Source: Zobellia alginiliquefaciens
Lineage (GTDB): Bacteria > Bacteroidota > Bacteroidia > Flavobacteriales > Flavobacteriaceae
DNA: 64,000 nt
Assembly: GCF_029323795.1 (NCBI RefSeq)
Contig: NZ_CP119758.1
Location: forward strand, 3,782,001-3,846,000
Direction of reading: 5' to 3'
In this document: piece by piece, positions 1 through 36,596 of the stretch
Layout: each line of letters begins with the position of its first letter
How positions within the stretch are numbered: the stretch's first letter is position 1
Made by a program: the position numbers and the translations under genes
Notes under the pieces: generated by a model
The model's input: the letters and a program-made list of their open reading frames with translations, nothing else
What the model was told of the DNA's origin: nothing
The model's database searches: none

Positions 1-1780
1 TTGCAGCCTGTCTGAAGAACAGAGCATAATGAACCAAGGTATCTTTTGGATGTATGGCATACCAACTGAGTGATGTTTCATGGTCCAGAAAATTATGGGA
101 TTCTGCACCTTGAGCTCCGGGACGAACCTGAGACCCTTCATCGTTGGTTATCCACAAACTGTTTTCTCCCGCCATGCAGAATACCTTATTCTTTATATCC
201 GGATGTTGGTAGAAACCATGACCTGGCAGATTACTGTTTCCGGCCCCTACATAACTTTCCGTATCCGGAGTGGTATACTCATCATCAGTATCTACCCAAG
301 TTTCACCTTTGTCGTAGCTCATTAGGGATATTTTGGCCATTTGGGTGTGAAGCACTGTACCGTCTGCATTCCATCGTATAAAATTGGACCCTTTACGTTC
401 ATAGAAGTCCCTGTCTACCCAATCTTTTAGGTAACGAAGAGAGATGTTGGTTTCCATAGGGTTGCCTCTTTCTTTCCAGTAGGCATAATCTTTGGAGGTC
501 GTTTTCCAGGCTTTTCCGTTACGAAGGGCAACATGCCAATTTTTACCTCCGTCTTTACTGCGCCAAATCTGACCGGGTTTGAAGTTGTTCCGAGAAGCGT
601 TGGAATATTCATTGTTAAGGTAAATATTATCTGCATCATTAGGGTCTACCGCAATAGTGTTAAAACGGATGGTAATGGCCGAGGGCATTTCCGGGAATTT
701 TTCCTTAAAATCATGGTCTTTCATATCAAAAACATAAGCTGCGCAGTGTACATAGCTCTTTTTGACATCTGCATTCTTTTGAAATTGCCGCATATCCAAA
801 GGCAAGTTGCCATCTAATTTTTCCCAACTTTCGCCACGGTCAATACTTTTGAAAATCCCACCCTTGTCATTGGTCAATGTTTTACCATCTGCTTTCCACA
901 TGGGGTTACATATAACGTATAGGGTTAGGACATCATTTTTTTTGTTGTAGTGATGGCTCATAGCTCGCATTACATCATAATCAAAACCATTGTTTTTTTG
1001 GGACCAGTTGTTTCCACCATCCGCGCTTTTATAAAAACCATAGTTGGTACTGGCGTATATAATATTTGAGTCTTTTGGGTCTACCAATAAAGTTTCGAAT
1101 TGGGTTTTTGGATGCAAACCTTTGTTCAGTACTACCCAGTTTTTACCCTTGTCCGTACTTTTCCAAAGTTTGTTTAAACTAGGTTCATGTTCTTTAGAGC
1201 CGTGGGGTTTGCTATTGGGGAACAACATTCTACCTAAATGTCTCATTTCACCACCACCGGCATACCAGATATTATCGTCTTTAGGGTCGACGGTTACGCA
1301 GGAAACGTATTTGCCTTTAAAAACAGGATGATTGAGATTTTTCCAAGAGCGGCCTCGGTCTTTGGTAATGAAAATACCCTTATTCTTGTCATCGCTACAA
1401 AAACCAAAATCATGGTTTTGGTGGGAGAAATCTACACTAAAAAGTTGCATGGGGCCTCGGTGCCCTTCCCTGTAACCGGATTCATCACCGTTCAATATGG
1501 TATTGTACGTTTTTCCCTTATCAAAAGAAACGTAAGAATTACCCATATTAGGGCTTATATAGAGAGCATTTGGGTCCGTAGGGTGCCAAAAGGCGCATTT
1601 GTTGTTGCCACTCATGCCAGGGCCAAATTGTTGCCAAACCACAGAAGGGTCGGATGATACTTTTTCGGTCTTTAGGCGTTTGAAAAAAGTAGAACCTTTT
1701 TGCGGTGCTTGAGCGAATATCAGCATTCCCATGAAGAGAAAGGATAGGGTGGCTATTTTAGAAAGGGAGGTTTTACTCAT
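1..1780 (-). CDS. Asp-box (BNR) propeller protein, 3' end outside window
   Basis: The frame is open from an ATG at 1780 to the left edge of the window (593 codons, no stop), so the C-terminus is missing. The N-terminus is a signal peptide ending in F-A-Q. About eight Asp boxes (S/T-x-D-x-G-x-x-W/F) are spaced along the protein, for example SFDKGKTY, TKDRGRSW, STDKGKNW, SADGGNNW, SIDRGESW, SKDGGKNW, SYDKGETW and TNDEG. Each follows a VDPKD-type strand. This is the pattern of a sialidase/VPS10-like beta-propeller of the BNR or WD40/YVTN type. Such proteins occur in PULs, where they may bind or cleave glycans; no sialidase Arg triad was recognised, so an enzymatic role is not claimed. It is the last visible gene of the minus-strand PUL operon, 30 bp after the GH16 gene. 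Confidence 0.85.
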   Translation of the reverse strand, partial: MSKTSLSKIATLSFLFMGMLIFAQAPQKGSTFFKRLKTEKVSSDPSVVWQQFGPGMSGNNKCAFWHPTDPNALYISPNMGNSYVSFDKGKTYNTILNGDESGYREGHRGPMQLFSVDFSHQNHDFGFCSDDKNKGIFITKDRGRSWKNLNHPVFKGKYVSCVTVDPKDDNIWYAGGGEMRHLGRMLFPNSKPHGSKEHEPSLNKLWKSTDKGKNWVVLNKGLHPKTQFETLLVDPKDSNIIYASTNYGFYKSADGGNNWSQKNNGFDYDVMRAMSHHYNKKNDVLTLYVICNPMWKADGKTLTNDKGGIFKSIDRGESWEKLDGNLPLDMRQFQKNADVKKSYVHCAAYVFDMKDHDFKEKFPEMPSAITIRFNTIAVDPNDADNIYLNNEYSNASRNNFKPGQIWRSKDGGKNWHVALRNGKAWKTTSKDYAYWKERGNPMETNISLRYLKDWVDRDFYERKGSNFIRWNADGTVLHTQMAKISLMSYDKGETWVDTDDEYTTPDTESYVGAGNSNLPGHGFYQHPDIKNKVFCMAGENSLWITNDEGSQVRPGAQGAESHNFLDHETSLSWYAIHPKDTLVHYALFFRQAA

Positions 1781-1810
1781 ATCACTGTGGTTTGGAAAAT
1801 GGAAGCCTAT

Positions 1811-3076
1811 TTATTTTATCAAGTTGATATACAGTGTGTTTTGATCTAAAATATTTTTGTTATCACCGTTTACAGGTCGAATGTTGGCCGTTAGCTTATA
1901 GGGCGATTCGGTAGATAGCTTTTCTTCCACCTGAACCACTGTGGTAATATTGGCATATCCCGCATAAGCAATAAATTTGGACTCCGCCACTTTTTCGCCT
2001 TCTGCATCAAACAATTTCAGTTCTATTTCTCGGTCTTGATTTGCCTGATAGGTAAGTGGAATTTGAACAGTGTTAGACTCTTTTTGAGAGATAATGGCCG
2101 TATTGAACGATACATTTTCTTTATAAAGTTTCAACGTACTCTTATTCGTTGAATTGGCGTCATTGGCGTCTACCAGCTTATAAGCTCTAACCCAATCATA
2201 GTACACCGTATTTCTACTTGGGTCGTTTAATTCTTCGGCACTAGGAATTTCTATCCACGGAAATGGATAAGTTTCACTCACTAAACGCATGTACATAGGT
2301 TGATCAAAGGGTTTCTCTTTTATCTTATCGTAAAATTTTTGATGTTTTGGCTGTCGGTCGTTATAATAGTAGCTCGCTGTACTTTCATTACGCCACCAAC
2401 CTCCATATATATTAAAATCTTCCGAGGTAAGTTTTTCGTCTTCAAATTTTACTTGTGGGGCTCGGTAATCATGTTTTTCGCCATCGCAGTCCGTATACCA
2501 GAAATGGGAATTGGAGTGCATTCCACTGGCAAAGTAACTTCCATTAAAATCCCCTTCACGCCCAATAGATTCATGAATATCCCACTCTAAACCGTATTTG
2601 TCACAATCGTTCGGTCCTTTAAAATTGTTGCTGCTCGAAAACCAGAATGTGGTGGACATGGTCGTAGCGGCAGCTTTAACACGACATTCGTAATAACCAA
2701 ATTGAGTCGATTTTTTCGAAACCACGGCGGCCCCTCCAACGTTAAAAGTTATATCTCTACCGTAGGCATGAACTATAGTATCCTTCTCAAGTTTTTTACT
2801 TGTCATTTTCAGAAAACCATCACCCACAGAAACCTGTGATGCCATAAAAAGTCCCGGTGGACGTCCAATCCAAGTGGGGTGGTGGTCGTACCATTTGGTA
2901 GTGTCTAGTTCTGTACCGTTAAATTCATCTGAAAAATCAGGGTTCAAAACCCAACGCTTGCCCATAGGCGGTTTTGGGGGTCCCTGGCGAGTTTCTTCAT
3001 TGGTATTAGGTATTTCTTGAGCAAATAGGCTACCGCTTACAAATGCAAAAAATATAATGGCGTGTTTAAAAATCAT
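1811..3076 (-). CDS. GH16 beta-galactanase (agarase/porphyranase-like)
   Basis: This 421-residue protein has a signal peptide with likely cleavage after Ala19 (S-L-F-A|Q-E). The GH16 catalytic signature ExDxxE is present as EWDIHES, with Glu164 as nucleophile, Asp166 assisting and Glu169 as acid/base. The N-terminal part has the W-x-G-R-P-P-G-L-F and QVSVGDGFLK segments typical of GH16 agarases and porphyranases, in the strand before the active-site cleft. The catalytic domain ends near residue 300 (VYYDWVRAYKLV). About 115 residues follow as a predicted beta-rich tail; no T9SS sorting domain was recognised there. The enzyme would cut beta-1,4 bonds inside a galactan, feeding the exo-enzymes of the same operon. 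The choice between agarose, porphyran and furcellaran as substrate is not settled by eye. Confidence 0.85.
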   Translation of the reverse strand: MIFKHAIIFFAFVSGSLFAQEIPNTNEETRQGPPKPPMGKRWVLNPDFSDEFNGTELDTTKWYDHHPTWIGRPPGLFMASQVSVGDGFLKMTSKKLEKDTIVHAYGRDITFNVGGAAVVSKKSTQFGYYECRVKAAATTMSTTFWFSSSNNFKGPNDCDKYGLEWDIHESIGREGDFNGSYFASGMHSNSHFWYTDCDGEKHDYRAPQVKFEDEKLTSEDFNIYGGWWRNESTASYYYNDRQPKHQKFYDKIKEKPFDQPMYMRLVSETYPFPWIEIPSAEELNDPSRNTVYYDWVRAYKLVDANDANSTNKSTLKLYKENVSFNTAIISQKESNTVQIPLTYQANQDREIELKLFDAEGEKVAESKFIAYAGYANITTVVQVEEKLSTESPYKLTANIRPVNGDNKNILDQNTLYINLIK

Positions 3077-3115: not shown

Positions 3116-4930
3116 TTAGATGCTCACGCTTATTTTCTTGTTATTTTTCTTTTGTGCTTCAACTTCATAAAAGCGCTGAAGTTTTTCTCCTTCCCCAACT
3201 TCAATGGTGTAAGCACCTTGTTGGAGCACTTTGGGTTTATATTCAGCACCTTTTATTCGGAGAGAGGTTATTACTTCACCTGTATAAAAGTCCTTTACGG
3301 TGACTACTTGATCGGGTTTTGAAATCTTTAAACCGGGTAATTCATAACCATTTTTAATTTGAAAATTATCCGTTTGCTTAAAAGTGATCGGCCAATCGCT
3401 ATACGGTTTTGCATCGTCTGCAAACATATTCGTATTTCTTGGCCAGCATTCGTAAGTGATTTCTCTTTTAGGTTTGTTAAAGCGAATAATGCCATAGCCT
3501 GAAGCTCTTCCGTTCAATAGGTTTTCTGTGGGAGTATTGTCTTCATGGGTAGGGTTGGCAATGGCATGAACCGTAATTTTATTTTTAAATCCGTCCAAAT
3601 ATTCACCCGTGTAATCTGCTGTGCCGGGTTTTCTGTTTTTTCCGGGTTTTTCAGGTTTCCAATAACGTAACCAAAAGTTAGATGAAGCAGGTACTGCAAA
3701 TGAATAACCGGCGTTGTTCCAATCTTCAATTCCATGATGAACCACAGAACCTAGATGTTGGTCTCCCGCAATCATACAGGAAAAACTTTTTCTAATGATA
3801 CCGAGTGCTTTGTTTCTTCCCGATTGCGGCCAGCCGTTGGAATCTACACTATAGCGTTGTCTTTTTTCTAGGGTAGGGGAATGGGTGGAAACACTGGCAA
3901 AAATGGTTTGGGAGAGTACAGCTTTCATTTCCGCATTTTCCCAATCTGTGGTCCAATCTTCTAAAAAGTCCATTTGGCGCTCTCCCAGTAGGGTAGCCTC
4001 GGGCACGTTCATTTCGCGTGTATCTGTAAAACCTCTTTTATTCAATACGCGGTCCGGCCCCGATTTAAATTTTCTGTCTTCTATGATTGCAAAACTGATT
4101 CCGCCCCATTTTAAATCGGTATAATAGACACCTATGCCCTGTTCAATAGGAGTAGGGTCATAGGGGTCCGGTAGGTGGCTGGTCTGTGCACGCTCAACTT
4201 CCTGAATATATGAAACAGGCATGTAATACCCTCCCTTTGTACCGTCTCTGTTTTCGGATTTTATTCCGCCATCGCCCCAAAAATTACCTTGACCTATATC
4301 GTGGTCATCGGGAATGGTAATGGTTGGCGTATTCCTGATGATATCTCCAAAAACCTCCCCGAATTTTAACCAATAGCTGTAATGCTGACTATGGTCATAC
4401 ACTTGGTCTCCCGCAAAGAACAGCACATCTGGTTTTAATTTGTTTAAATTATTTATGATGTCGTCTGCTGGGCCTTGACCGCCATGTCTTTTGTAAATGG
4501 ACCAACAGGAAAAGGCGGCCATAATTACTTCTTCCTTGTTTACAGGATTTTTTTGAATGGTGCCTGTGTAAAACGACTTTTTATTATACGCCACCCGGTA
4601 TTCTTTCTTTAGGGTGTCGTCCCAGTTATCTATCCGGAAAAGAGCTGTGTAGCCAGGATAGTTAATCCGTGATTCTTGAACGGTCTTCCATTCATTATTT
4701 TCTTTAATCTGTAGCTCTGCGGAAAATGGTTCATAATCCTTTATAGGATAGAACTGAGCGGTAAGTTTTAAGGTGTTCTCATGAACGGTATATAAGGCAA
4801 AGCATATTTTGTCTTTTGGAGACGGACTTTTAGAGGAGTGCGGCGCTGTCTTTTTCTGTGCCTGTGCCTGTACACCAATGGTTAGACCTATGAAAAGTTG
4901 TAAAATAAATGATTTTAAAATGGTTTTCAT
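3116..4930 (-). CDS. PhoD-like metallophosphohydrolase
   Basis: The chosen start is the ATG at 4930, giving 604 residues and the signal peptide MKTILKSFILQLFIG...VQAQAQ. A longer frame to 4981 would overlap the upstream sulfatase. The metal-binding motifs of calcineurin-like/PhoD enzymes are visible: FSCWS, AGDQVYDH (about residues 173-180), IPDDHDIGQGN (about 206-216), and a later IAGDQHLGS plus NPTHEDN. A beta-sandwich of about 130 residues precedes the catalytic domain, as in PhoD-type phosphodiesterases. It lies between a sulfatase (25 bp gap) and GH16 (39 bp gap), so it is co-transcribed with galactan-degrading genes. It could remove phosphate or another ester from the substrate or scavenge phosphate. 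Family assignment is firm; the role in the PUL is inference. Confidence 0.8.
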   Translation of the reverse strand: MKTILKSFILQLFIGLTIGVQAQAQKKTAPHSSKSPSPKDKICFALYTVHENTLKLTAQFYPIKDYEPFSAELQIKENNEWKTVQESRINYPGYTALFRIDNWDDTLKKEYRVAYNKKSFYTGTIQKNPVNKEEVIMAAFSCWSIYKRHGGQGPADDIINNLNKLKPDVLFFAGDQVYDHSQHYSYWLKFGEVFGDIIRNTPTITIPDDHDIGQGNFWGDGGIKSENRDGTKGGYYMPVSYIQEVERAQTSHLPDPYDPTPIEQGIGVYYTDLKWGGISFAIIEDRKFKSGPDRVLNKRGFTDTREMNVPEATLLGERQMDFLEDWTTDWENAEMKAVLSQTIFASVSTHSPTLEKRQRYSVDSNGWPQSGRNKALGIIRKSFSCMIAGDQHLGSVVHHGIEDWNNAGYSFAVPASSNFWLRYWKPEKPGKNRKPGTADYTGEYLDGFKNKITVHAIANPTHEDNTPTENLLNGRASGYGIIRFNKPKREITYECWPRNTNMFADDAKPYSDWPITFKQTDNFQIKNGYELPGLKISKPDQVVTVKDFYTGEVITSLRIKGAEYKPKVLQQGAYTIEVGEGEKLQRFYEVEAQKKNNKKISVSI

Positions 4931-4955
4931 TTGATAATAGTTTAGTCCCAACCGC

Positions 4956-6572
4956 TTATTTTGTTTTTTTAAGGGAATCAATTTTTCCTATACCATTTGT
5001 AGGAGCATCATGTTGGGTTTCATGAAGATTAAAAGTAGGAATAGTTTTTAATAATTTGTCACGTTCATTTTTATGTGCTTGTGAAACTTGACTCCAATCT
5101 TTTATTTTAGGATAGCTGATAAGGTCATCCGGTGTTTTACTTACATCATACCACACATCGTTTCCATCTTTTAGAACAAGGTTCCCTCTTACAATTTGGG
5201 TTTCTTTATGATAGCCGTAAACCCACTCCCGATGTGTTGTTTTATCCGTAGTCAAAAAGGGTATTAAACTTTCTCCATTGATTTCATAACTATTGGGAAT
5301 TTCTACATTAGCGATATCGGCAATGGTAGGGAGCACATCCGACATATTTGCAAGCACATCTTGCATTCCTTTTTTGGTCATATTCATTCCTGGAGCGTAG
5401 ATGATTAGAGGTACGTGCGTACCTTTCTGAGATACTGGACTTGATTTGCCGTAGCCACTAGTACCATTGTCCGCACAAAAAATAAAAATGGTGTTGTTCT
5501 CAATACCTAGCTTTTTAAGTTTGTTCATGTACTGCCAAACCTGATAATCTAGATAGTTTATATGATGGTGAATACCGCTATCGGTAACCGTACCATGGGT
5601 GTCATACACTCCGTTATCTCCGGTAACATTAGGTTTAATACGTGTGTATTTTGATCCGTCCCATGAAATTTTTGGCGTACCGGGCCATTTGTTTCCGGAG
5701 TCTGGGTTGAAAAAGTCCCAAGCATCATGACCCAAGTGACTGGTATGGTATACAAAGAAAGGTTCTTTTTCTTTTTGCTTTCTTTCCATGAACTCAAAAA
5801 TAAAATCTAGTTCCACATCGGGACCAAAGGTGTTCAATCCAAATTCTTTTTCCGCTTTTTTAGTATTGGGCCACCACACAAGTTTTTTGTTCGTGCCGGG
5901 GTGGTTCATGAGCTGTACATGTGGTTTCCAATACCAACCGGATTGTACGTAGCTTTTCTTATGGATTTCCTTATTGGTATCGGCATTAAAAATCTTCTTC
6001 TTTCCGTTTATTTCTCTAGTTTCCAAACGGAAGTCCGTGGTGTGTATGGCTTTATTGTAAGAGCCTTCTCCTGGCGTAAAACACCCTTCGTCAAACTGAA
6101 ATCCTTCAATCTCCATTTGTGTTTTTCCTGCCCAAAACGTAACATAGCCACCTGCTTTGGCCACATTGGCGATGGAGTGAGGTGAACTGTCATATAAGTT
6201 CCAAACGCCTTTGCCGTTGGGAGCTTTACCTTTGTCTTTATTATGCCACCATTTGTGTAAATGCGCATACCTGCCTGTCATCATCATAGCCCTACTTGGT
6301 CCGCAAACCGTAGCTGCCCAGGCGGTTTTAATATAACAACCTTCTTCAGCAAGTGTGTTCAATACAGGTGTTTCTGCACGGTATTGCATATCTGAGGTAT
6401 TACCTCCTTTTGGAGGGCTCCAAACCGTAGAGCCGTAAATGGGCAGTTCACGGGCACTAATATCATCGGCATATAAAAGAATGATATTAGGTTTTTCTTG
6501 GGCTATTCCTAATGAGGTTATCATCAGGCTTCCTAGTAAAACCCATAAGACTTTATGATTTGAAATTTTCAT
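4956..6572 (-). CDS. S1-family sulfatase (FGly type, CGPSR)
   Basis: The start is taken at the ATG at 6572 (538 residues), because it gives a clean signal peptide (MKISNHKVLW...SLGIAQ) and avoids overlap with the upstream sulfatase that ends at 6607. The N-terminal NIILLYADDIS strand carries the metal-binding Asp pair. The formylglycine motif is C-G-P-S-R-A-M-M-M-T-G-R, with Cys90 as the residue to be oxidised. FCADNGTSGYG later supplies the second metal-binding D-N. The protein belongs to the type I alkaline-phosphatase-like sulfatases, which hydrolyse carbohydrate sulfate esters, and would act in the periplasm. No maturase (FGE/anSME) gene is in the window. It shares the operon with another sulfatase 34 bp upstream. 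The sulfate position it attacks cannot be told from the sequence alone. Confidence 0.9.
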   Translation of the reverse strand: MKISNHKVLWVLLGSLMITSLGIAQEKPNIILLYADDISARELPIYGSTVWSPPKGGNTSDMQYRAETPVLNTLAEEGCYIKTAWAATVCGPSRAMMMTGRYAHLHKWWHNKDKGKAPNGKGVWNLYDSSPHSIANVAKAGGYVTFWAGKTQMEIEGFQFDEGCFTPGEGSYNKAIHTTDFRLETREINGKKKIFNADTNKEIHKKSYVQSGWYWKPHVQLMNHPGTNKKLVWWPNTKKAEKEFGLNTFGPDVELDFIFEFMERKQKEKEPFFVYHTSHLGHDAWDFFNPDSGNKWPGTPKISWDGSKYTRIKPNVTGDNGVYDTHGTVTDSGIHHHINYLDYQVWQYMNKLKKLGIENNTIFIFCADNGTSGYGKSSPVSQKGTHVPLIIYAPGMNMTKKGMQDVLANMSDVLPTIADIANVEIPNSYEINGESLIPFLTTDKTTHREWVYGYHKETQIVRGNLVLKDGNDVWYDVSKTPDDLISYPKIKDWSQVSQAHKNERDKLLKTIPTFNLHETQHDAPTNGIGKIDSLKKTK

Positions 6573-6606
6573 GTTCTGGTTTGATATGTTTTTAAGTAGT
6601 CTGGAT

Positions 6607-8175
6607 TCAATAAAATTCCCAAAATCCGTATTTCTCACCTTCAATATTTTTTTTAGTATCACCCAATTCCTTGGCTTTCTCCTTCATTTCTTTGCGCATG
6701 GTCCGTACTTGATCGGCGTATTCGGGAAAGAAGGAAAGGTCATAAACCTCCCAGGGGTCGTTTTTAATATTGAACAATTGGGTAACGCGGGATCCCATTA
6801 CGGTTTCACCGCTCTTTTTGTCATAATTATTTGCACGGACGTACTCAATTAATTTATAGTCCCCTTTTCTATATGCCCTTTGGAACTGCCTGTAAGCATG
6901 GTAGGTATAATCCCGAACACTGGTTTTTTCTTTATTGATTACAGGCAAAAGACTTTTACCGGTAACCGAACTAGGCACATCATTACCGATAAAATCCAAG
7001 ATCGTAGGGAAGATATCGAAGTTATAGGCTAAAGCCTCTCTTTTACCGCCCTTGTCTTTTATGAGATTACCTGAAAAAACGAGTGGAATATGAACTCCAT
7101 CTTCATCATAAATATTCTGTTTCCCCATTAAACCATGATTGCCAACTGCCAGACCACTATCACCAGCAAAAACAATTAACGTATTTTCATAGGCGCCGCT
7201 TTCTTTCAATGATGCAATGACTTTACCTATTTGGTCATCTAAATGAGTGATAATGGCATAGTAATCGGAAAGTTGTTCTTTCGCCACATCCGGTGTTCTG
7301 GGCCACACGGCCAATTCTTCGTCTCTTAAAAACATATGCCCATTATCAAAAGGGTGTTGTGCCATATAGGAAGGGGGGAGGATGATATCCTCAATTGGGT
7401 ACATGTCTTTGTATTTCTGTGGTGCCTGTCTTGGATCATGAGGCGCGTGAAATGCCAAATACATGAAGAAGGGATCTTTCTTTTTATAATCCATAATAAA
7501 CTTGGAAGCACTTTCTGCATAGATTTGAGAGGTATGTGGACCGTTTTTTTCTGTGCCGAAAGGGCCTCTTTTATCCTCTTTGGTTACCGGTCTACGGACC
7601 ACTTTTCCATCGGTATCATATACTAGTAGATATCCATCCTCTTTTTTGTAATCACCGTCTTTTTTCCAGTCCCAAGAAGGCATACGAAAGTGATCGACCA
7701 AGTAAATACCTCTGGACATTATACGATCTCCTGAATCAAAAGAACGAGACAGACTGGCATTATCTTGGTGCCATTTGCCCACAATATGGGTGTTGTAGTT
7801 TTGGGCCTGTAAGGCTTCTCCTATGGTTGAATGTTCGGGCGGAATAGTGTGTCCCTGACCCTGTAATTCAAATACGTTTCTACCGGTCAATAACATAGCT
7901 CTACTGGGAACGCAGGTAGCACCGGAAAAAGCACCCATTAAATATCCATTGGAAAATGAAATGCCATCAGCAACCAAAGCATCCATATTTGGAGTCTTTA
8001 CTTGCATGCCACCCAAGGCATGTACTCCTGAAAAGCGATGGTCATCCGTATAGATTACAAGTACATTAGGCCGGTCTTTCTTTTTGGTTTTACGTTTTTG
8101 AGCCCTTACGGGAAGCACCAATAACGTACAAAAAACGACTAAAAAGCAAAGTGAAAATCGATTTCTAAACTTCAT
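6607..8175 (-). CDS. S1-family sulfatase (FGly type, CVPSR)
   Basis: This 522-residue protein starts at the ATG at 8175 with a signal peptide ending LPVRAQ. NVLVIYTDDHR carries the metal-binding aspartates, and C-V-P-S-R-A-M-L-L-T-G-R holds the formylglycine Cys88. AFHAPHDPRQAP (mid-protein) and FAGDSGLAVGNHGLMGKQ (second metal site) are shared with the sulfatase at 17168-18685, suggesting the two are paralogs of one S1 subfamily. It contains a basic stretch (QKRKTKKKDR) right after the signal peptide. It lies 4 bp downstream of a GH28 gene, so it is tightly co-transcribed. It probably removes one class of sulfate ester so that a neighbouring exo-glycosidase can act. Confidence 0.9.
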   Translation of the reverse strand: MKFRNRFSLCFLVVFCTLLVLPVRAQKRKTKKKDRPNVLVIYTDDHRFSGVHALGGMQVKTPNMDALVADGISFSNGYLMGAFSGATCVPSRAMLLTGRNVFELQGQGHTIPPEHSTIGEALQAQNYNTHIVGKWHQDNASLSRSFDSGDRIMSRGIYLVDHFRMPSWDWKKDGDYKKEDGYLLVYDTDGKVVRRPVTKEDKRGPFGTEKNGPHTSQIYAESASKFIMDYKKKDPFFMYLAFHAPHDPRQAPQKYKDMYPIEDIILPPSYMAQHPFDNGHMFLRDEELAVWPRTPDVAKEQLSDYYAIITHLDDQIGKVIASLKESGAYENTLIVFAGDSGLAVGNHGLMGKQNIYDEDGVHIPLVFSGNLIKDKGGKREALAYNFDIFPTILDFIGNDVPSSVTGKSLLPVINKEKTSVRDYTYHAYRQFQRAYRKGDYKLIEYVRANNYDKKSGETVMGSRVTQLFNIKNDPWEVYDLSFFPEYADQVRTMRKEMKEKAKELGDTKKNIEGEKYGFWEFY

Positions 8176-9571: not shown

Positions 9572-9615
9572 TTTGCGCTCTTTGTGGCTTCTAATTTTAA
9601 GCGGTTCCAAAATGG

Positions 9616-15072: not shown

Positions 15073-15433
15073 TTTCACGTTAATATTTATTGTGGTGAAA
15101 GTCTTAAATAATTATTGGGCAAAAGACCACGAACAGTTGAAATTATAGAACAGATGGTTTTTTTTGTTTGCTCTATATCGGAAGCACTTAGTTTAATGCC
15201 TTTTTATAGTAGGCATTGGCGTTCATAAGAAAATAGAGGTTGTCAATGAATTGTCAAGTTTTAAGTGGGGCGATACCCTTAAACTTGTGCGGACCCCATT
15301 ATAAAACAAATGCCTGTATGTCCATTTGTTGTAAACTTTAGAACATGTGTAGCGCGTGTATAGACCGTAAAAATAGAATTTAGCAATTCTTAACAGGGCG
15401 ATAGAAAAGTACTATCGTCATAACAACCTCGCT
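15073..15433. promoter_or_regulatory. Divergent PUL promoter region
   Basis: These 361 bp separate the GH2 operon (minus) from a GH29 gene (plus), so both promoters must lie here. Visible elements are an inverted repeat AATGCCT/AGGCATT with a 9-nt spacer (15195-15217), two direct copies of TTGTCAA with an 11-bp period (15240-15246 and 15251-15257), and a hairpin next to the GH29 start (listed separately). I found no convincing TAnnTTTG box. Helically phased direct repeats are the kind of site that AraC-type output domains bind, but that link to the hybrid regulator of this locus is inference. Confidence 0.5.
15397..15419 (+). promoter_or_regulatory. Hairpin just upstream of GH29 start
   Basis: GGCGATAG (15397-15404) can pair with CTATCGTC (15412-15419) across a 7-nt loop, with one G-T wobble. 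The 3' arm ends 14 bases before the ATG at 15434. It could be an operator half-site pair in DNA or a leader hairpin affecting translation. Confidence 0.45.
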
Positions 15434-28858: not shown

Positions 28859-30862
28859 ATGAGAGATATAAAATATAGTATTAGGTTTCTTTTTTTGCTG
28901 CTGATTGTTGTTGGCTGTGAAGATGATGACGAGTACATAGCACCGAATACCTTTGTAGATGCAGCTTTTACCACTACATGGGGTACAGCGACAGTAAGAG
29001 ATATAGATATCAACAATTATGGGTCGTTTATGGACCTATCCAATGGAACCACAAAACACGAATGGACCATACCGGAAGGAACCTTTTTTCTGGAAGGGCC
29101 TCTACCCACCAGAGCAGATAGCTTTGAGTCTAATATTATTGAGGGTACGGGAAAGGTTTCGGATGAAAGAACGGTACATGTGTTGTTTACAAAAGGAGAT
29201 TCCCTAACTCCTATAAAACTCCATAATGAATATGAGGAATATACGGAGTTTGCTTTGCCCACGGGTTGGGATGCGGAAACCAACTCGGTAATTATAGATA
29301 CCTTAAAGACCGTGCAAAAAGGTTCGGCCTGGGTTTTGGATTACACCATTTTTATTGATGTTTATGATACTATCGTGGCAGATATGGAAATCAGGGACTT
29401 GGAAGGGAATACTATCGATTTTAAAAATCAAGCTGAAATAGATATTAAGTTTGGTGAGCAACTTATTTTTGAAGATTTAAGTCGCCAAAACAATACTTCT
29501 AGACCAACATCTACAATTTGGACTATTCATACCATAGAGGAGAATGAAGAAGACAAGGTGAATATTATAAATGTAAACGAAGAAAAAACTATTGATACGC
29601 TAACCTTTAACAAGCGTATTGGTAAGTTCAAAGGCCGCTTGGTTTCAAGAAGAGATAGGACCGAAACCGTTCAGGCAGACGACGAAACTTATGAGATACC
29701 CGTAGTTTTCAATGTGACCGCATTGGACGAAGCTCTAGAACAGTCTGGAGATGTAATTGAATTGGCGGATAATACTATTGAAGTGCCTTTAAGTTCTAAA
29801 TTGGTACCTCTTACAGAAGATGTTTCCACCAACTTTGTAGTTGAAGTAAATGGTACGGCTAGGTCTGTTACTTCTGTAGTACAGAGTCCTGAAGATGCCT
29901 CTGTACTTGTACTTAGCTTAGACACTCAATTAGAGGGTACTGATGCAGCTAATACGGTTACGGTTTCCTATGACGGTGGTAGTGCTACATTGCAATCTGT
30001 AGATGAACGTGTGCTGGAAGCTTTTAGTAGTGCTCCCGTTGAGGTGTATGTTCCCGTTCCTGTGAATAGGGTAGGAATGATTCAAAAAACTACTGAGGAC
30101 GATGTAATTTTGGTGGCTTTTGACCAACCGCTAGACCCAACTTCGGTTACTGCCTCTGCAGACGCTGCTATGGGCTTTTCGGTCATGGTGAACGGTGTTC
30201 CTTTAACAGTCGCCTCGGTTGAAGTGGATCCTGCAGATTCTACTCGTTTAAGAATGATACTGAACGAAGAGTTATATAGAGATGATGAGATTACCGTTTC
30301 CTATGCTGGTCCAGGCGATATTCGTTCTATTGGGGCTGGGGAATTAGTAGATTTTGGTCCTGATATGGTCATGGCGAATGAAGACAATATTTTAGGTGAC
30401 GTAGGTAATTATGAAAATCCGATTGATACGGATTGGTTAAATACGGGTTCTAATGGTGCGGGAGCAGCTGATATAATTGTGGCACCAACACCTGATGTCA
30501 TCTCTATGGTGGAGCCCACAGGAAACGTCATGCATTTGTCCGCTCCGGATGGGAACAAACCTAATACGGTTACCAGTGCAACCTTTCCGTTTGAAGCTGG
30601 TGTAGCATACAGGGTGAAATTCAAAAGGTATTTGGGCAGTACCACCACAACTACATTTGCCAAGCATTATTTTGGGAATCAGCAAATTGATGATTCTTGG
30701 AACGGTGCGGAAGACGTATTGGGAACTTGGCAGTTGGTTGAGTTCACTTTTACTGCAGATGCCACCTCAAACGGAACGGTAAGGATTCAACCCGTACCAG
30801 CAGGAATAAGTGATGTTTATTATGACGATTATATAATTCAAGTAGATGATAATCGGCCATAA
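28859..30862 (+). CDS. Multidomain surface glycan-binding lipoprotein
   Basis: This 667-residue lipoprotein (lipobox VVGC, Cys20) is the third gene of the susCD operon, 21 bp after susD. The N-terminal half resembles the PKD/DUF-type surface lipoproteins seen after SusD. Two tandem Ig-like domains of the SwmB type follow (about residues 290-390 and 395-490), each with the pattern of V-x-F/L-D-x-x-L-D and VTVSY. The last 160 residues look like a carbohydrate-binding jelly roll (FPFEAGVAYRVKFKRY, WQLVEFTFTAD, YYDDYIIQVD). It probably hands polysaccharide to SusD. No catalytic motif was seen. It is not a standard SusE or SusF, so it is left without a symbol. Confidence 0.7.
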   Translation: MRDIKYSIRFLFLLLIVVGCEDDDEYIAPNTFVDAAFTTTWGTATVRDIDINNYGSFMDLSNGTTKHEWTIPEGTFFLEGPLPTRADSFESNIIEGTGKVSDERTVHVLFTKGDSLTPIKLHNEYEEYTEFALPTGWDAETNSVIIDTLKTVQKGSAWVLDYTIFIDVYDTIVADMEIRDLEGNTIDFKNQAEIDIKFGEQLIFEDLSRQNNTSRPTSTIWTIHTIEENEEDKVNIINVNEEKTIDTLTFNKRIGKFKGRLVSRRDRTETVQADDETYEIPVVFNVTALDEALEQSGDVIELADNTIEVPLSSKLVPLTEDVSTNFVVEVNGTARSVTSVVQSPEDASVLVLSLDTQLEGTDAANTVTVSYDGGSATLQSVDERVLEAFSSAPVEVYVPVPVNRVGMIQKTTEDDVILVAFDQPLDPTSVTASADAAMGFSVMVNGVPLTVASVEVDPADSTRLRMILNEELYRDDEITVSYAGPGDIRSIGAGELVDFGPDMVMANEDNILGDVGNYENPIDTDWLNTGSNGAGAADIIVAPTPDVISMVEPTGNVMHLSAPDGNKPNTVTSATFPFEAGVAYRVKFKRYLGSTTTTTFAKHYFGNQQIDDSWNGAEDVLGTWQLVEFTFTADATSNGTVRIQPVPAGISDVYYDDYIIQVDDNRP

Positions 30863-31197: not shown

Positions 31198-32877
31198 TTA
31201 CTTTGGTTCAATAATAACACCTCTTTCTCCTTCACTGTCTGCGGTATACCTAAGAACCTTTGGGAATTCAGTGCCTCTAGCATTGGTGATTTCTGTTTTC
31301 CACACCTTTCTCAACTCTTCTAATTTACTTTGGTTTGATGCATCCGAAGCTAAGTTGGTAGTTTCTTTTGGGTCTTTCTTTAGATTGAACAATTCTTCGT
31401 AAACAGCGGGTTCACCTTGCAAAGGGCCATCAGCAAAAGAACGGTACAACGCTATATCTGGATCATGGACTTTATAGAGCATGGCGCTCGTGTTGATGCC
31501 CATTTTTTTTGCTGTTTCAATCTTTTTTAATGCGGATAGATTTTCGTTTTTATAGTAACGAATGTATTTCCATTCATGGTCTTGAACCGATTCGCATCTT
31601 GGGTTTCCAAATTGAGTGGACCATAAATTTTCAGTGTAAAGGTAAGGGCGAACGGCATCTTCTTCTCCGGCTAATAATTGTGTCAAATTTTTGCCTTGGT
31701 AGCTATCCGGAATGGATATACCCGCCATGGTCATCATAGTGGGAGCAATATCTATGCTTTGTACCAAGGCATCCGAAGTTTTACCCCGCTTTGATTTTTT
31801 TGTGTTAGGGTCAAATATAATCATAGGGACGTGAGTGGTTTCCTCATAACACAAAGCTTTTCCGCCAAGTCCGAATTGTCCCATAAAAAGTCCGTGGTCC
31901 GAGGTGAAAACAATAACGGTATTTTTATCTATTTTTTGGTCCTTCAAGGTTTGTCTTAGTTGACCAATAAGTCGATCTATGCCTGTCATAGCCTCTAGTT
32001 GTCTTGTGTAGCGTTCTTTAAAACCTTCAGGTGTATCTACATAGTCATAGCCTGTCTGACGGTCTTCTGCATGATGGATTTCCTTAGGAAGTTTCGGGGT
32101 TTTAATATCTTTTCGAGCTACATAATTTTCTGGTAAAGGCAAGTTTTGGTCGCGATATAAGGTTTTGTATATCTCATCGTCACTCGCTCTCATTTCCATA
32201 GAGCCTGTTCCGTTCCCATGGGGAAGGTTAAAGCAAACGGAAAGCATAAAGGGCTTATTGGTTGGTCGGTTATCAATGAATTTTATTGCTCCACCTAGCT
32301 TCTGTTCGTTCGATAGAAAATCTTGAATACCTTCACCAACTACTTCTACTTGAGTATCGTTTATAGCGTCTTTAAAAATCTTGTGGCGGTCTTTAGGATA
32401 GAAACCTAAATGACCATGACCGGCATACCAGTAATCAAAGCTTTTTTCCATTACTCCGCTGTCGTATCCACCTTCGCCTACAGGTACATGGTTTTTACCT
32501 ACCCATCCCGTGTAATAGCCATTTTCTCTCATGACCATAGGGTAGGTGTTAGTCCAGCCTTCTTCTGACATGCTCGTACCCGAATTGAAATTTATACCGT
32601 GTTTCCTTTCAAACTGACTCGTAAGGATACTGGCTCTACTGGGCGTGCAAATGGCACTGGTAATATGGGCATTAGTAAAAAGTACACCGTCATTCGCCAA
32701 TTTATCTAGGTTCGGAGTCTGAACAATTGTGTTTCCTGTGCAGCCCATAAGACCATATTGCTGGTCATCCGTCAATATGAATATAAAGTTCGGATTATCC
32801 TGGGCGTAGCCTGTAGTTATTGAGGTTACGTAAATAAAAAGCAGTGTGAAAATTGATTTTATAGCTGTCCGGTTCAT
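31198..32877 (-). CDS. S1-family sulfatase (CTPSR)
   Basis: This 559-residue protein has a signal peptide ending GYAQ. NFIFILTDDQQYGLMGC gives the metal-binding Asp pair, and C-T-P-S-R-A-S-I-L-T-S-Q holds formylglycine Cys77. FTSDHGLFMGQFGLGGKALCYEETTHVPM supplies the second metal site and its neighbours. It is the last gene of a four-gene minus-strand operon and converges with the susCD operon. It is longer than the sulfatase upstream and carries a different middle segment, so it belongs to a different S1 subfamily and probably removes a different sulfate. Confidence 0.9.
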   Translation of the reverse strand: MNRTAIKSIFTLLFIYVTSITTGYAQDNPNFIFILTDDQQYGLMGCTGNTIVQTPNLDKLANDGVLFTNAHITSAICTPSRASILTSQFERKHGINFNSGTSMSEEGWTNTYPMVMRENGYYTGWVGKNHVPVGEGGYDSGVMEKSFDYWYAGHGHLGFYPKDRHKIFKDAINDTQVEVVGEGIQDFLSNEQKLGGAIKFIDNRPTNKPFMLSVCFNLPHGNGTGSMEMRASDDEIYKTLYRDQNLPLPENYVARKDIKTPKLPKEIHHAEDRQTGYDYVDTPEGFKERYTRQLEAMTGIDRLIGQLRQTLKDQKIDKNTVIVFTSDHGLFMGQFGLGGKALCYEETTHVPMIIFDPNTKKSKRGKTSDALVQSIDIAPTMMTMAGISIPDSYQGKNLTQLLAGEEDAVRPYLYTENLWSTQFGNPRCESVQDHEWKYIRYYKNENLSALKKIETAKKMGINTSAMLYKVHDPDIALYRSFADGPLQGEPAVYEELFNLKKDPKETTNLASDASNQSKLEELRKVWKTEITNARGTEFPKVLRYTADSEGERGVIIEPK

Positions 32878-32905: not shown

Positions 32906-34300
32906 TTATTTACCCGTAGTACCCTGGGCTTTTTTGCGCATGCCCTGCAATGCTTTTTCTTCTTTGATTACATTTTCTTGGTGGGGGTCGAACCAGCCCG
33001 GAACTAGGTTTTTAGCATCCCAGGCGGTATAAGCTTTTTCTAATTCTGCAATTACTTCAGGATGTTTATCTGCTATATCCGTTCGTTCCCAAGGGTCGTT
33101 TTTCAGATTAAAAAGTAGGGTTTTAGCTTTGTATGCGCTTTTGTAGAGTTTGTAATCTCCCATTCGGACGGCATATTCAAAACCTCCCACCGATCGCCAG
33201 AACAACTTTTCATGTGGAGTGTCCGTTTTTCCTTCTAAAATGTAGGGTAGAAGGGTAGTACCGTCTAATTGGTTTTCCTTTTTTACGTTTCCTCCAGCTG
33301 CTTCTAGAAAGGTAGGGAAGAGGTCTAATGAACTAATGGGTTTCTCATAACGCTGACCGCCCTTCAATTTATTGGGCCATGTCATAAAGAAGGGAACTTT
33401 TATTCCCCCTTCGAACAACATGCCCTTATGACCACGAAAAGGTCTGTTGTCCGCATGCTGCGTGCGTCCGCCATTATCACTTAGAAATACTAGAATTGTA
33501 TTTTCTTTCATACCATTGACAATTAGTGTTGAGTCTATTCTGCCTACGTTTGCATCTAAGGCATTTACCATAGCGGCATAAATACTTCGTCCACCATATT
33601 CAATATGCTTTGTGTTCTCTAAATATTGTTTTGTAGCATGGTCAGGTGCGTGTGGGGCATTATAGGCCAAATACATAAAGAAGGGTTTATCATCTTTTTT
33701 GTTGATAAAGTCTATGGCTTCATCCGTAAAGTCATCCGTAAGGTACCGTAGTTCATTTTCAGGAACCGGTATGCCATTTCTTACAACAGTTTTTATTGGC
33801 CCACTAGGTTTGCCCCAATAGTTCATTCCGCCACCGGCAAAACCGAACCAATGGTCAAAACCTTGATGCGGGGGGTGCAGGTTGGCATGGTCGCCCAGAT
33901 GCCATTTACCAATGGCGCTGGTACGATAGCCCTGTTCCTTTAAGGCTTCGGGAATCATTTTTTCAGAAAGAGGAGTGCCTACCGTATCATCGTTTTCGGC
34001 TTCGTAAGGCATGTTACAATCGTGTCCGAAACGGGCTTGGTAACGACCTGTTAAAAGTCCGGCACGGGAAGGGCTGCAATAGGGATGAGAAACGTATCCG
34101 TTCTCAAAGATTACACCCTCAGAGGCAATCCGGTCTAGGTTGGGAGTAGGAATATCCGTTGCACCATTAAAGCCAACGTCTGCCCAGCCCTGATCATCCG
34201 TTAAGACTACTATAATGTTCGGTTTTTGTTGTTGAGCTCTGCTCGGCAGGGTTGTCATAAAACCTATAGCAAATATGAATAAGAGTTTGATGTTCTTCAT
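32906..34300 (-). CDS. S1-family sulfatase (CSPSR)
   Basis: This 464-residue protein starts at ATG 34300 with a signal peptide ending PSRAQ. Metal-binding NIIVVLTDDQGWAD, the formylglycine motif C-S-P-S-R-A-G-L-L-T-G-R (Cys75), AIGKWHLGDH and LSDNGGR are all present, which is the arylsulfatase-A-like group. The compact length matches this group. It ends with a Lys/Gln-rich tail (KALQGMRKKAQGTTGK). It is 15 bp downstream of GH29 and 28 bp upstream of the other sulfatase, so a GH29 and two sulfatases are made together, as expected for removal of sulfated alpha-linked units. Confidence 0.92.
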   Translation of the reverse strand: MKNIKLLFIFAIGFMTTLPSRAQQQKPNIIVVLTDDQGWADVGFNGATDIPTPNLDRIASEGVIFENGYVSHPYCSPSRAGLLTGRYQARFGHDCNMPYEAENDDTVGTPLSEKMIPEALKEQGYRTSAIGKWHLGDHANLHPPHQGFDHWFGFAGGGMNYWGKPSGPIKTVVRNGIPVPENELRYLTDDFTDEAIDFINKKDDKPFFMYLAYNAPHAPDHATKQYLENTKHIEYGGRSIYAAMVNALDANVGRIDSTLIVNGMKENTILVFLSDNGGRTQHADNRPFRGHKGMLFEGGIKVPFFMTWPNKLKGGQRYEKPISSLDLFPTFLEAAGGNVKKENQLDGTTLLPYILEGKTDTPHEKLFWRSVGGFEYAVRMGDYKLYKSAYKAKTLLFNLKNDPWERTDIADKHPEVIAELEKAYTAWDAKNLVPGWFDPHQENVIKEEKALQGMRKKAQGTTGK

Positions 34301-34315: not shown

Positions 34316-35824
34316 TTATTTTAAAGTGATTTTATAGACTAAAGCGGCTTCAGCTTCAGCGGGCATTTTTTTTGGAGCGATAACTGTAAGTCCTTCTGCG
34401 GTTTTTTTCCATTTTATTTTTTGTTTACTTCCTAAGACCGAGACGGATTTAATTTCCATGTTTTCTGCTTTGTTGGCAAAAGCGGTCAATACGGATTCTT
34501 TGTTCTCGGCTGGCCATCCCAATTGAATGGCGTAGACTGTTTTACTATTGGTGGTATACCGTATATCTTTTGCGTTCAGGTCGTATAAACCAGCTTTTAT
34601 AGCTCCGTAGTCGTTCCACTCGTCTTCTGGGTTTCGTTTCATTTGGGTGGGTCCCTGGCCATATTCCACAAAAGGACGTGTGTTGTAAATAGCCTCTCCA
34701 TATAGTTTGAGCCAAGCGCCAATACCTTTCATGGCTTCGGCTTGTTCTTGGGGAATAACGCCTTCGGCCATTGGAGCCGCAGCTAAAATCATTACCCCGT
34801 TTTTACTGACAACCTCGGCCAATATGCGTATGGCTTTTTTGGGGTCCAAAGCAGTGCGTTTGTTTTTGTTATATCCCCACGAACTACCTAATTGAAAGTC
34901 GGTTACCCAAACTTCTGGAGCAATGTCTTCTACAGTGGCTCTTTCTAGATTGACCACGGCTAAATCCGTTGGGAAAAACGACCCTTTGGTGTTTACCACT
35001 ACCTCTTTGTTCAGTTCGGCCGCTTCATTGAAGTAATTGGCCAAAAATTGCTTGCGATAGTCTTCCTTTACATAACCCTGCGCAAAATCCATCCAAATAT
35101 AATCCGGAGAATAGGCATTGATTACTTCATTAAGTTTTCCCAACCAGATATCACATTCTTCTTGGTACGTGGTATTTCCATATAGAATACGGTATTTTTC
35201 ATCTTGCGGAACTTCGGGGTTTTCATAAGTAACCGAGTGCGAACTTACCGGACGAAGGAAACTATTCTCCTTTTTAGGATAAAAAAGCATATGAAATCCG
35301 TGGTGAAAAGTGGTCATAAACTTTAAGTCACGTTTTTTTACTTCTTCGCTAATTTGTTGTACCACGTCAATACCAGGACCTTTATCAAATGAGTTCCAAG
35401 GATTCACATCACTTTTCCAGAGTGAAAATCCATCGTGGTGTTCGGCAATGGTTCCTATGAATTTTGCCCCCATGTTTTCAAACATATCCACCCATCGTTT
35501 TGCCGAGAATTTTTCAGCTTTCCATTGTGGTATAAAGTCGTGATAATCTACATCTCTCCCATAAGTTTTTGTATGGTAATCGTAAACATCCTTTCCCCAG
35601 GTTTTTTGGCGGTCATGTTCGTACATGAAACGCCCGTACCACTCATTTCCATTGGCAGGAACGTTGTATACGCCCCAATGAAAATAGACACCCAACTTTG
35701 CATCTGCAAACCATTCAGGTGTAGCTTTATGTTGTTTAAGGCTATTCCATTCCGGTTTAAATTTTTCTTGGGCAGAAACGGCATAGGTGAAGATTAATAG
35801 GAATACTGTAGAGAGATTTTTCAT
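34316..35824 (-). CDS. GH29 alpha-L-fucosidase/galactosidase family
   Basis: This 502-residue protein has a signal peptide with cleavage near A18|Q19 (YAVSAQ). GH29 landmarks are DAKLGVYFHWGVYNVP, EWYGRFMYE, intact E-H-H-D-G-F (about 128-133), FHHGFHM, and the nucleophile region PDYIWMDFAQG with Asp246. A complete C-terminal beta-sandwich follows SSWGYN and VSKNGVMILAAAP. It is clearly related to the other two GH29 genes but has insertions (KKENSFLRPVSSHSVTY) that set it apart. It is a secreted, soluble form rather than a lipoprotein. Three GH29 copies in one locus suggest different linkages or sulfation contexts. Confidence 0.9.
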   Translation of the reverse strand: MKNLSTVFLLIFTYAVSAQEKFKPEWNSLKQHKATPEWFADAKLGVYFHWGVYNVPANGNEWYGRFMYEHDRQKTWGKDVYDYHTKTYGRDVDYHDFIPQWKAEKFSAKRWVDMFENMGAKFIGTIAEHHDGFSLWKSDVNPWNSFDKGPGIDVVQQISEEVKKRDLKFMTTFHHGFHMLFYPKKENSFLRPVSSHSVTYENPEVPQDEKYRILYGNTTYQEECDIWLGKLNEVINAYSPDYIWMDFAQGYVKEDYRKQFLANYFNEAAELNKEVVVNTKGSFFPTDLAVVNLERATVEDIAPEVWVTDFQLGSSWGYNKNKRTALDPKKAIRILAEVVSKNGVMILAAAPMAEGVIPQEQAEAMKGIGAWLKLYGEAIYNTRPFVEYGQGPTQMKRNPEDEWNDYGAIKAGLYDLNAKDIRYTTNSKTVYAIQLGWPAENKESVLTAFANKAENMEIKSVSVLGSKQKIKWKKTAEGLTVIAPKKMPAEAEAALVYKITLK

Positions 35825-35849
35825 TTAATATGGGAAGGGTTAATGAAAT

Positions 35850-36596
35850 TTATTGAGGGTATTGTTCAATTTCTTGTATCTTAATATTTCTGTAGATAAT
35901 CTCGGCACCTTCAGCTTGTAGGGCTATATTCCCTTTTTCCAAAGGATTGCCCTCGGAATCTAAAAAGTCTTTCAGCTCGTTAACAAGATGGCCGTTTTCA
36001 AAGAATTTGGCGCTTTCGGAACCTCTAACCTCCACACGTACCTTGTTCCAACCCTCTACTTCATGGTTGGCATATTTATCGCCTTCTATGTATGTCTTCT
36101 TACCGTTGGATTGTAGAAATATTTCAGAACCGTCTTTTTGGAACCAAGTTACTTGTGGTCCTTTTATGACCCGGAGGTCACCCGTATCGCCTTCTTGAAT
36201 TTGGCATTCTAAACAGGTAGGCCAGATTACCTTTTCTCCTTGTACATGAAAAACGATACCGGCATCTCTTTTGGCTTCGAGACGGGGAGCAAATTTGCGC
36301 TCCCCCCACTTATATTCGAGTTCCAAGTTAAAATGACTGTACTCCTTGGTTGTGGTAATCATACCAAAGGGAGCTTTTTCTCCCTTCCAATCATAGAGTA
36401 CCTCTATTTTATTCTTTTTTATTTCGAATAATTTTTGATTGGAGGGTAACTCATTTGGAGTGATGGTGTAACTGGAACCGAGTTCGTTCTTTGGAAATGG
36501 GTTGGTCCATTTTACCCCAGGTTCTTGAGCTGAAAGAGATAACAGGGCACTAGAAAAAAGTGTCCACGTTAAAATAGAAGCGATTTTAATTTTCAT
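35850..36596 (-). CDS. DUF1080 family secreted protein
   Basis: This 248-residue protein has a signal peptide (ending LSLSAQ) and a concanavalin-like beta-sandwich typical of DUF1080 (3-keto-disaccharide hydrolase family): FEIKKNKIEVLYDW, HFNLELEYKWGERKFAPR, DAGIVFHVQGE, CLECQIQEGDTGDL, WNKVRVEVRG and FENGHLVNEL in order. Members bind or hydrolyse modified sugars. It is the first gene of the operon continuing into GH29 and two sulfatases, starting 104 bp from a perfect palindrome. The three Cys residues (in W-P-T-C-L-E-C) are not universal in the family. Catalysis here is not demonstrated. Confidence 0.8.
   Translation of the reverse strand: MKIKIASILTWTLFSSALLSLSAQEPGVKWTNPFPKNELGSSYTITPNELPSNQKLFEIKKNKIEVLYDWKGEKAPFGMITTTKEYSHFNLELEYKWGERKFAPRLEAKRDAGIVFHVQGEKVIWPTCLECQIQEGDTGDLRVIKGPQVTWFQKDGSEIFLQSNGKKTYIEGDKYANHEVEGWNKVRVEVRGSESAKFFENGHLVNELKDFLDSEGNPLEKGNIALQAEGAEIIYRNIKIQEIEQYPQ

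Follow-up and report, generated by a model that had tools for sequence, protein, structure and literature searches.

Gene content of the locus

In this work we analysed a stretch of 64,000 bases (the window; G000:C1:3782001-3846000) of Zobellia alginiliquefaciens, whose genome is a single contig of 5.07 Mb with 48 SusD matches, and the polysaccharide utilization locus (PUL) that occupies the left part of this stretch. According to Pfam and translations, the PUL carries a GH16-like enzyme (GH, glycoside hydrolase family), a PhoD-like protein, two GH28, three GH29, one GH2 and five S1 sulfatases, together with a hybrid two-component system regulator (HTCS), SusC, SusD, a PF06439 protein and an Asp-box/Sortilin-type protein (Table 1). 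This content bears out the gene list of an earlier reading made from the sequence only, and comprises the elements of a PUL of Bacteroidota, namely a SusC/SusD pair, clustered carbohydrate-active enzymes and a regulator. We propose, with a probability of about two in three, that the locus belongs to a PUL whose substrate is a porphyran-type sulfated agaran and in which the two GH28 would act as a tandem of exo-alpha-galactosidases.

Reading the host genome leftwards places the start of the locus left of base 1. The flank holds, in this order, the remainder of the Asp-box protein (which the window edge interrupts, its 3' part lying left of the window and the full open reading frame in the flanking piece L010), a GH117, a fourth GH29 (GH29d), an 824-aa protein and a PVC-type haem protein, followed by a second GH2. 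The extent of 1-36596 previously assigned to the locus is therefore too short, since the PUL continues beyond the window edge with GH117, GH29d and GH2. The GH117 gene (G000:C1:3779847-3781109) is beside GH29d and ends 891 bases before the window start, so that the statement that no GH117 is present holds inside the window and fails for the locus. The lack of a match to any textbook agar or porphyran locus goes back to the same cause, because the window was cut there: with the flank included, a porphyranase-type GH16, a GH117, alpha-L-galactosidase-type GH29, a GH2 and sulfatases make up an agar/porphyran set. As first noted, GH86, GH50, GH127 and GH129 are not listed for the scanned window proteins; of these, GH129 (PF11308) was searched genome-wide, and gave no match.

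Table 1. Position, strand and supporting evidence of the PUL genes in the window
Feature	Position	Strand	Evidence
Asp-box / Sortilin-Vps10-type protein, 873 aa in all	2..1780	-	PF15902 5e-38, PF02012 3e-14
GH16, endo-beta-porphyranase-type enzyme	1811..3076	-	homology to solved porphyranases, ExDxxE motif (EWDIHE)
PhoD-like protein	3116..4981	-	PF09423 8e-11
S1 sulfatase S1a	4956..6662	-	PF00884 7e-28
S1 sulfatase S1b, cassette member	6607..8175	-	PF00884 5e-48
GH28a, W-type, cassette member	8180..9610	-	PF00295 2e-23
GH29a, alpha-L-galactosidase-like	9616..11193	-	7ljj 1e-107
GH28b, W-type, cassette member	11195..12697	-	PF00295 3e-22
GH2, beta-galactosidase type	12595..15078	-	PF02836, PF02837, PF18565
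GH29b, alpha-L-galactosidase-like	15434..16990	+	7snk 4e-129, 7ljj 3e-126
S1 sulfatase S1c, C-A-A-S-R site	17168..18685	-	PF00884 1e-46
HTCS hybrid two-component regulator	18843..23093	-	Reg_prop, Y_Y_Y, HisKA, HATPase_c, Response_reg, HTH_18
SusC-like TonB-dependent transporter	23736..26915	+	Plug, CarbopepD_reg_2
SusD-like lipoprotein	26927..28837	+	PF07980 8e-35
667-aa protein with SWM repeats	28859..30862	+	PF13753 4e-10
S1 sulfatase S1d, C-T-P-S-R site	31198..32877	-	PF00884 1e-49
S1 sulfatase S1e, C-S-P-S-R site	32906..34300	-	PF00884 2e-69
GH29c	34316..35824	-	PF01120 9e-88
3-keto-disaccharide hydrolase family protein	35850..36596	-	PF06439 2e-23

Enzymes of the porphyran and agar type

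By homology, the GH16 of the window is closest to beta-porphyranases. Its Pfam score (6e-4) is below the Pfam cut-off; among solved structures, four porphyranase sequences match it at 6e-51 to 2e-33 (best 4awd, E=5.6e-51), compared with 6e-7 at best for agarase-named entries and about 2e-5 for kappa-carrageenases. This enzyme would provide the endo-acting activity of a porphyran or agar PUL. The GH117 matches 4u6d at 6e-199 (4u6d and 4u6b are the Zobellia GH117 paralogues) and the anhydro-alpha-L-galactosidase 4ak5 at 9e-57. Together with the GH2 and the sulfatases, GH117 and the GH29 described below complete, as far as homology goes, the combination of an alpha-L-galactosidase GH29 and/or a GH117 with a GH2 and a sulfatase that is expected of such a PUL. 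The C-x-P/A-S-R site of sulfatases, the ExDxxE motif of GH16 and the aspartate of GH29 are catalytic in these families; the first is present in all five sulfatases, and an x-x-x-D stretch that we read as the nucleophile region is present in each of the four GH29. No solved structure is close to S1a (best 8e-17), S1b matches 5g2v (1e-40), 7snj (3e-36) and the exo-L-galactose-6-sulfatase 7lha (6e-33), and S1c matches 7p24 (2e-40) and 7lha (3e-33); 7lha is thus among the relatives of both and first for neither. By position, S1a, S1b and the GH2 are the counterparts of ZGAL_3629 (S1_30), ZGAL_3630 (S1_28) and ZGAL_3633 of Zobellia galactanivorans (PMC5698469; papers are cited throughout for those parts of their text that were available).

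GH29a, GH29b and GH29d, the three GH29 searched against solved structures, are closest in sequence to the exo-alpha-L-galactosidase entries 7ljj and 7snk, which are BpGH29 of the Bacteroides plebeius porphyran PUL (PMC12316285). For GH29a, 7ljj scores 1e-107 versus 1e-75 for 4ni3, the best fucosidase-named entry other than 7snk; 4ni3 scores 1e-78 with GH29b versus 4e-129 for 7snk, and 4e-52 with GH29d versus 1e-62 for the exo-alpha-L-galactosidase entries. Outside the window, at 4944385-4953487 (L058/L059), the host has an operon that starts with a GH29 77% identical to GH29b and continues with a 338-aa gene, which we read as a zinc-type dehydrogenase, UxaA, a tagaturonate reductase, a lactonase, an L-fucose/L-galactose dehydrogenase and FucP. 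The names of the other genes rest on homology to relatives in locus L017 that were profiled there (Pfam, profile cut-offs), the dehydrogenase, reductase and FucP being above cut-off and the lactonase and galactarate-dehydratase below. Known steps of the L-galactose route include tagaturonate reduction and altronate dehydration to 2-keto-3-deoxygluconate (KDG) (PMC12632266), and the presence of tagaturonate reductase and UxaA homologues in this GH29-linked operon would fit an operon of the L-galactose type. A second, different cluster at 3.65 Mb carries FucP and an L-fucose-dehydrogenase homologue. FucP above cut-off and a GH29b relative (E<=1e-80) are both found in 28/28 genomes with a GH28a locus, host included. 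Distances were counted for GH29b matches of at least 58% identity, which 26 of these 28 genomes have: in 21/28, such a match and GH28a are at most 90 kb apart on one contig; in 19/28, FucP is at most 15 kb from such a match; and in 14/28, FucP and GH28a are at most 90 kb apart.

The GH28 pair

Alignments and structure models indicate that GH28a and GH28b (32% identity over 448 aligned positions) are GH28 by fold and by catalytic acids, and not by two canonical motif residues. The three catalytic aspartates (N-x-D and DD) are retained in all 51 sequences compared (28 GH28a and 23 GH28b, window pair included). In the same 51 sequences, i.e. the window pair and 49 relatives, the histidine of G-H-G is replaced by tryptophan, which is residue 277 (Trp277) in GH28a, and the arginine of R-I-K by glycine, with retention of the lysine; the absence of G-H-G from both copies, seen already from the sequence, thus corresponds to this tryptophan, after which we call these proteins W-type. 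Tryptophan is found at the histidine column in none of the 15 distant GH28 readable there (17 rows were aligned, two of which, L042 and L053, are partial and gapped at this column). The AlphaFold models (pLDDT, the model confidence score, 91 for GH28a and 88 for GH28b) both contain, according to Foldseek, a right-handed beta-helix of the GH28 type, and the best matches of both are exo-acting GH28 (5olp, 2uve and 3jur for GH28a, 5olp and 3jur for GH28b). These exo-galacturonidases have the fold and the three catalytic aspartates in common with the window pair, at 21-23% identity, but differ from it at the two positions occupied by tryptophan and glycine.

A single scan with GH28a yielded 44 named loci, of which the 27 with a GH28a of at least 57% identity were counted (L037 and the loci past L038, whose GH28 is at most 34% identical, were excluded). 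Within the fetched pieces, GH28b is present in 22/27, S1b in 24/27 and GH2 in 20/27 of these loci. The records come from Zobellia, Kriegella, Maribacter, Aquimarina, Cellulophaga, Flavivirga, Algibacter, a Jejuia metagenome-assembled genome, other Flavobacteriaceae and the verrucomicrobium Pelagicoccus. We tentatively propose, at somewhat less than an even chance, that the W-type tandem represents a new GH28 activity, that of exo-alpha-galactosidases for L- or D-galactose units in the sulfated galactans of red algae, distributed as a GH2-GH28b-GH28a-sulfatase cassette in many marine Flavobacteriaceae and in Pelagicoccus. This proposal draws on the exo-type fold, on the catalytic acids, which are retained, and the two canonical residues, which are not, on the GH2 and sulfatase genes that often accompany the pair and on the association with agaran genes described below, and also on the fact that a GH110A/GH110B tandem does the same job in a lambda-carrageenan PUL. 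Possibly, one GH28 of the pair accepts a 6-sulfate and the other does not. GH28 normally prefers D-galacto units (alpha-D-galacturonic acid), which, like the carrageenan induction discussed below, points to a substrate in the D-configuration; the agaran setting points to the L-configuration. Among papers listed for GH28 in combination with porphyran, with agar in Zobellia or with agar and L-galactose, neither the titles nor the openings of the abstracts give these GH28 a function, in a search that left out most subscription journals.

The idea that GH28 releases L-galactose for want of a nearby GH29, suggested by L017 and L019, whose short fetched pieces showed L-galactose genes next to the cassette but no GH29, was abandoned, a GH29b-type gene lying about 13 kb away in both genomes. 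In four loci (L015:7319-8614, L016, L018 and L021) an extra sulfatase-type gene (cluster c11, assigned by Pfam on the L016 copy) is just before GH28b; the window has instead GH29a just after GH28b. A KduI gene stands next to the cassette GH2 in 4/27 loci (L016:436-1275, L018, L021 and L026), above the NCBIfam cut-off in L016, the one copy tested, and has no ready place in a galactan pathway.

Association with agaran genes across genomes

The best few candidates per genome were scored in 299 genomes of the family, with thresholds of E<=1e-100 for GH28b, 1e-40 for GH117, 1e-60 for kappa-carrageenase-like genes and 1e-30 for window-type GH16, the last being loose enough to let in other agar-type GH16. 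GH28b is found in 14 genomes (10 genera), GH117 in 29, a kappa-carrageenase-like gene in 8 and a window-type GH16 in 22. All 14 GH28b genomes have GH117 (versus 15/285 others) and all 14 have a window-type GH16 (versus 8/285). Within the 29 GH117 genomes, window-type GH16 still goes with GH28b (14/14 with it versus 6/15 without, p=7e-4), and kappa-carrageenase-like genes less so (5/14 versus 1/15, p=0.08). Finally, GH117 is present in 27 of the 28 genomes with a GH28a locus. This association test makes agaran more probable than carrageenan without deciding between the two.

Several observations weigh against an agaran of the porphyran type. A kappa-carrageenase-like gene is present in 5/14 GH28b genomes versus 3/285 others (p=5e-6), and the statistics above count related genomes as independent. 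In G012, GH28a occurs in a genome that gives no GH117 match at 1e-20. GH117 is within the fetched piece in only 6/27 GH28a loci; a GH16 close to that of the window is present in 5/27, all Zobellia, and in 0/22 non-Zobellia loci within fetched pieces (matches of 26% and 32% in two). The lead of GH29d over the fucosidases is small. In Z. galactanivorans, ZGAL_3629-3638 respond to kappa- and iota-carrageenan with strong induction (log2 3.9 to 9.9) but do not respond to D-anhydrogalactose, and none of the polysaccharides tested, among them agar and porphyran, gives a clear shift of the SusD ZGAL_3638 in gels (PMC5698469). The main text of a microarray paper covering agar and porphyran contains no ZGAL_36xx name (PMC5613140).

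Proposed model for the degradation of a sulfated agaran

The genes present, their homologies, the changed motifs, the association across genomes and the operon are observed; the substrate, the cellular locations, the order of steps and the activity of the GH28 pair given here are inferred. The HTCS would sense an oligosaccharide, GH16 would cut the chain outside the cell and SusC/SusD would import the fragments. In the periplasm, sulfatases would, in turns with the other enzymes, take off sulfates, GH29 alpha-L-galactose, GH117 3,6-anhydro-L-galactose and GH2 beta-D-galactose, and the freed L-galactose would be oxidized towards KDG by the 4.94-Mb operon. The W-type pair would serve as exo-alpha-galactosidases for a galactose unit outside the reach of GH29, for example one that keeps its sulfate or is D-configured. 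Agarans have L-galactose stubs and carry many substitutions (PMC7511586), which may be the reason for keeping four GH29 and two GH28.

We consider it unlikely, although a genuine rival, that the target is instead a galactan of the D/L-hybrid type, or agaran that occurs as an admixture in carrageenophyte carrageenan, with the GH28 pair acting on alpha-D-galactose (6-sulfate) units and GH29/GH117 on the L-units. For GH28, whose usual ligand is alpha-D-galacturonic acid, such a substrate would mean a small change, and GH110A, an exo-6-sulfo-alpha-D-galactosidase, provides a precedent (PMC12549532). D/L-hybrids have been reported in red algae, the presence of both units in one molecule being unsettled (PMC7511586). 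A hybrid galactan keeps its place here because carrageenans induce the Z. galactanivorans counterpart, whose GH2 ZGAL_3633 is active on odd-DP (degree of polymerization) oligo-carrageenan (PMC5698469); carrageenan itself is kept as a rival because of this published induction and of the link of GH28b to kappa-carrageenase-like genes, a link less full than that to GH117. Against this stand the lack of a clear shift of ZGAL_3638 in carrageenan gels and the 9/14 GH28b genomes that have no kappa-carrageenase-like gene. In addition, the best kappa-carrageenase score of the host is 75 bits, short of the cut-off of 350; this miss says less than it seems, because none of the 299 genomes reaches that cut-off, the eight kappa-carrageenase-like genomes scoring 208-305 bits. 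GH129, which had no match through the host genome in a search that did not extend to GH82, GH150 and GH127, is a poor carrageenan marker, the Zobellia enzyme being only GH129-like. Carrageenan as main substrate is thus lowered by the lack of a good kappa-carrageenase match in the host and by the tie of GH28b to GH117 and window-type GH16.

It is very improbable that the GH28 pair are true (rhamno)galacturonidases and that the PUL is directed at a polymer that bears uronic acids or resembles pectin. Pfam does place them in GH28, the galacturonidase 5olp is their best solved relative by fold, KduI adjoins GH2 in a few related loci, and the best NCBIfam model is the rhamnogalacturonidase NF049898 (BT4146), but the scores of 242 and 207 bits (8e-72 and 6e-61) are far under its cut-off of 500. 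R-I-K residues contact the substrate carboxylate, and the arginine, like the canonical histidine, is replaced in every W-type sequence. No pectin gene was met among the proteins scanned in the window and its flanks, and no pectin lyase, GH105 or GH88 is listed among those of the window and of the flanking pieces L009 and L010; the association of GH28b with GH117 and window-type GH16 also argues against pectin.

A fucose-containing sulfated polysaccharide attacked by GH29 acting as alpha-L-fucosidases is hardly tenable either: the Pfam name of GH29 is alpha-L-fucosidase, the dehydrogenase and permease profiles carry L-fucose names, and L-galactose and L-fucose differ at C6 only, but GH29a, b and d are nearer to exo-alpha-L-galactosidases, the operon linked to GH29 contains homologues of tagaturonate reductase and UxaA and is separate from the FucP/L-fucose-dehydrogenase cluster, and GH117 and porphyranases are not known to have a role on fucans. 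The target first suggested, a sulfated galactan with alpha-L-galactose or fucose branches, is therefore retained as the best substrate for its alpha-L-galactose part, and its fucose part becomes less likely.

Neighbouring genes

The 667-aa protein with SWM repeats is possibly a surface glycan-binding lipoprotein, in view of its position and N-terminus. In the left flank, the 824-aa protein (L010:3590-6064), between GH29d and the haem protein, has no Pfam match. Beside the PUL, L010:736-3054 and L009:764-17552 contain a PVC-type haem/DUF7133 protein, two FAD-dependent oxidoreductases, CstA, an SSF transporter and a GH97; these genes and the PF06439 protein at the other end of the PUL (35850-36596) may together hint at a 3-keto-glycoside route. 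Right of the PUL, the window contains a 3562-aa type IX secretion cargo (CHU_C) with DUF11 and RCC1-like domains (39329-50017, + strand), followed by genes for PorP/SprF and an OmpA-family protein (50041-52921), and thiamine genes of the phosphomethylpyrimidine-kinase type and ThiC (38039-38839 and 53561-55420).

Comparison with known systems

Taken as a whole, the locus is unremarkable for a degrader of red-algal galactans, and corresponds to ZGAL_3628-3640 of Z. galactanivorans, which comprises S1_30, S1_28, GH28, GH28, GH2, GH29 and SusCD, with the putative porphyranases PorD and PorE at its ends (PMC5698469). The window shares its families and published order, GH16 (PorD), S1_30, S1_28, GH28, GH28, GH2, GH29, SusC, SusD; this match was made by families and order as given in the paper, and sequences were compared with five other named Zobellia loci. 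These five share the order S1c, GH29b, GH2, GH28b, GH28a, S1b, S1a, GH16, with 74-93% identity; one (L012) has no HTCS next to S1c. The window differs by its GH29a between the two GH28 and by PhoD, both outside the published Z. galactanivorans numbering; GH29a is at this place in none of the five named Zobellia loci and the PhoD-like gene is present in two of them. Conversely, Z. galactanivorans has a second GH16, ZGAL_3640, and none is listed at the right end of the window PUL. In 2017 ZGAL_3628-3640 was published as carrageenan-induced, with its substrate unproved, and its authors suggested another sulfated galactan, e.g. sulfated agars (PMC5698469, the sole paper found with six ZGAL_36xx locus tags). 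What stands out is the GH28 cassette, by its conserved order, the 14/14 co-occurrence of its GH28b with GH117 and window-type GH16 among 299 genomes and its high induction in Z. galactanivorans. The function of these GH28, once solved, would explain the published anomaly of an agar-type locus induced by carrageenan.

With the porphyran PUL of Phocaeicola (Bacteroides) plebeius (BpGH16B, BpS1_11, BpGH29, BpGH2C; PMC12316285) the window shares a GH16 porphyranase, a GH29 alpha-L-galactosidase, GH2 and S1 sulfatase types, and the GH16 and GH29 of the window find their best matches in solved porphyranases and in BpGH29 (7ljj/7snk), respectively. Unlike that PUL, which has a GH86 (none is listed for the window proteins), the window PUL and its flank have two GH28, four GH29 and five sulfatases; neither GH28 nor GH117 is mentioned in the main text on the P. 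plebeius PUL (PMC12316285).

In the lambda-carrageenan PUL, a tandem of exo-alpha-galactosidases works with GH2 and sulfatases, GH110A, the exo-6-sulfo-alpha-D-galactosidase, being for 6-sulfated galactose and GH110B acting best on free galactose (PMC12549532). Foldseek matches GH28a distantly to GH110 entries (TM, the structural similarity score, 0.36 and 0.42 by query length). If our proposal for the GH28 pair is right, an activity on galactans could be added to a family known for pectin, and the window PUL would be alike in its working to the lambda-carrageenan PUL, with a different GH family and a different substrate.

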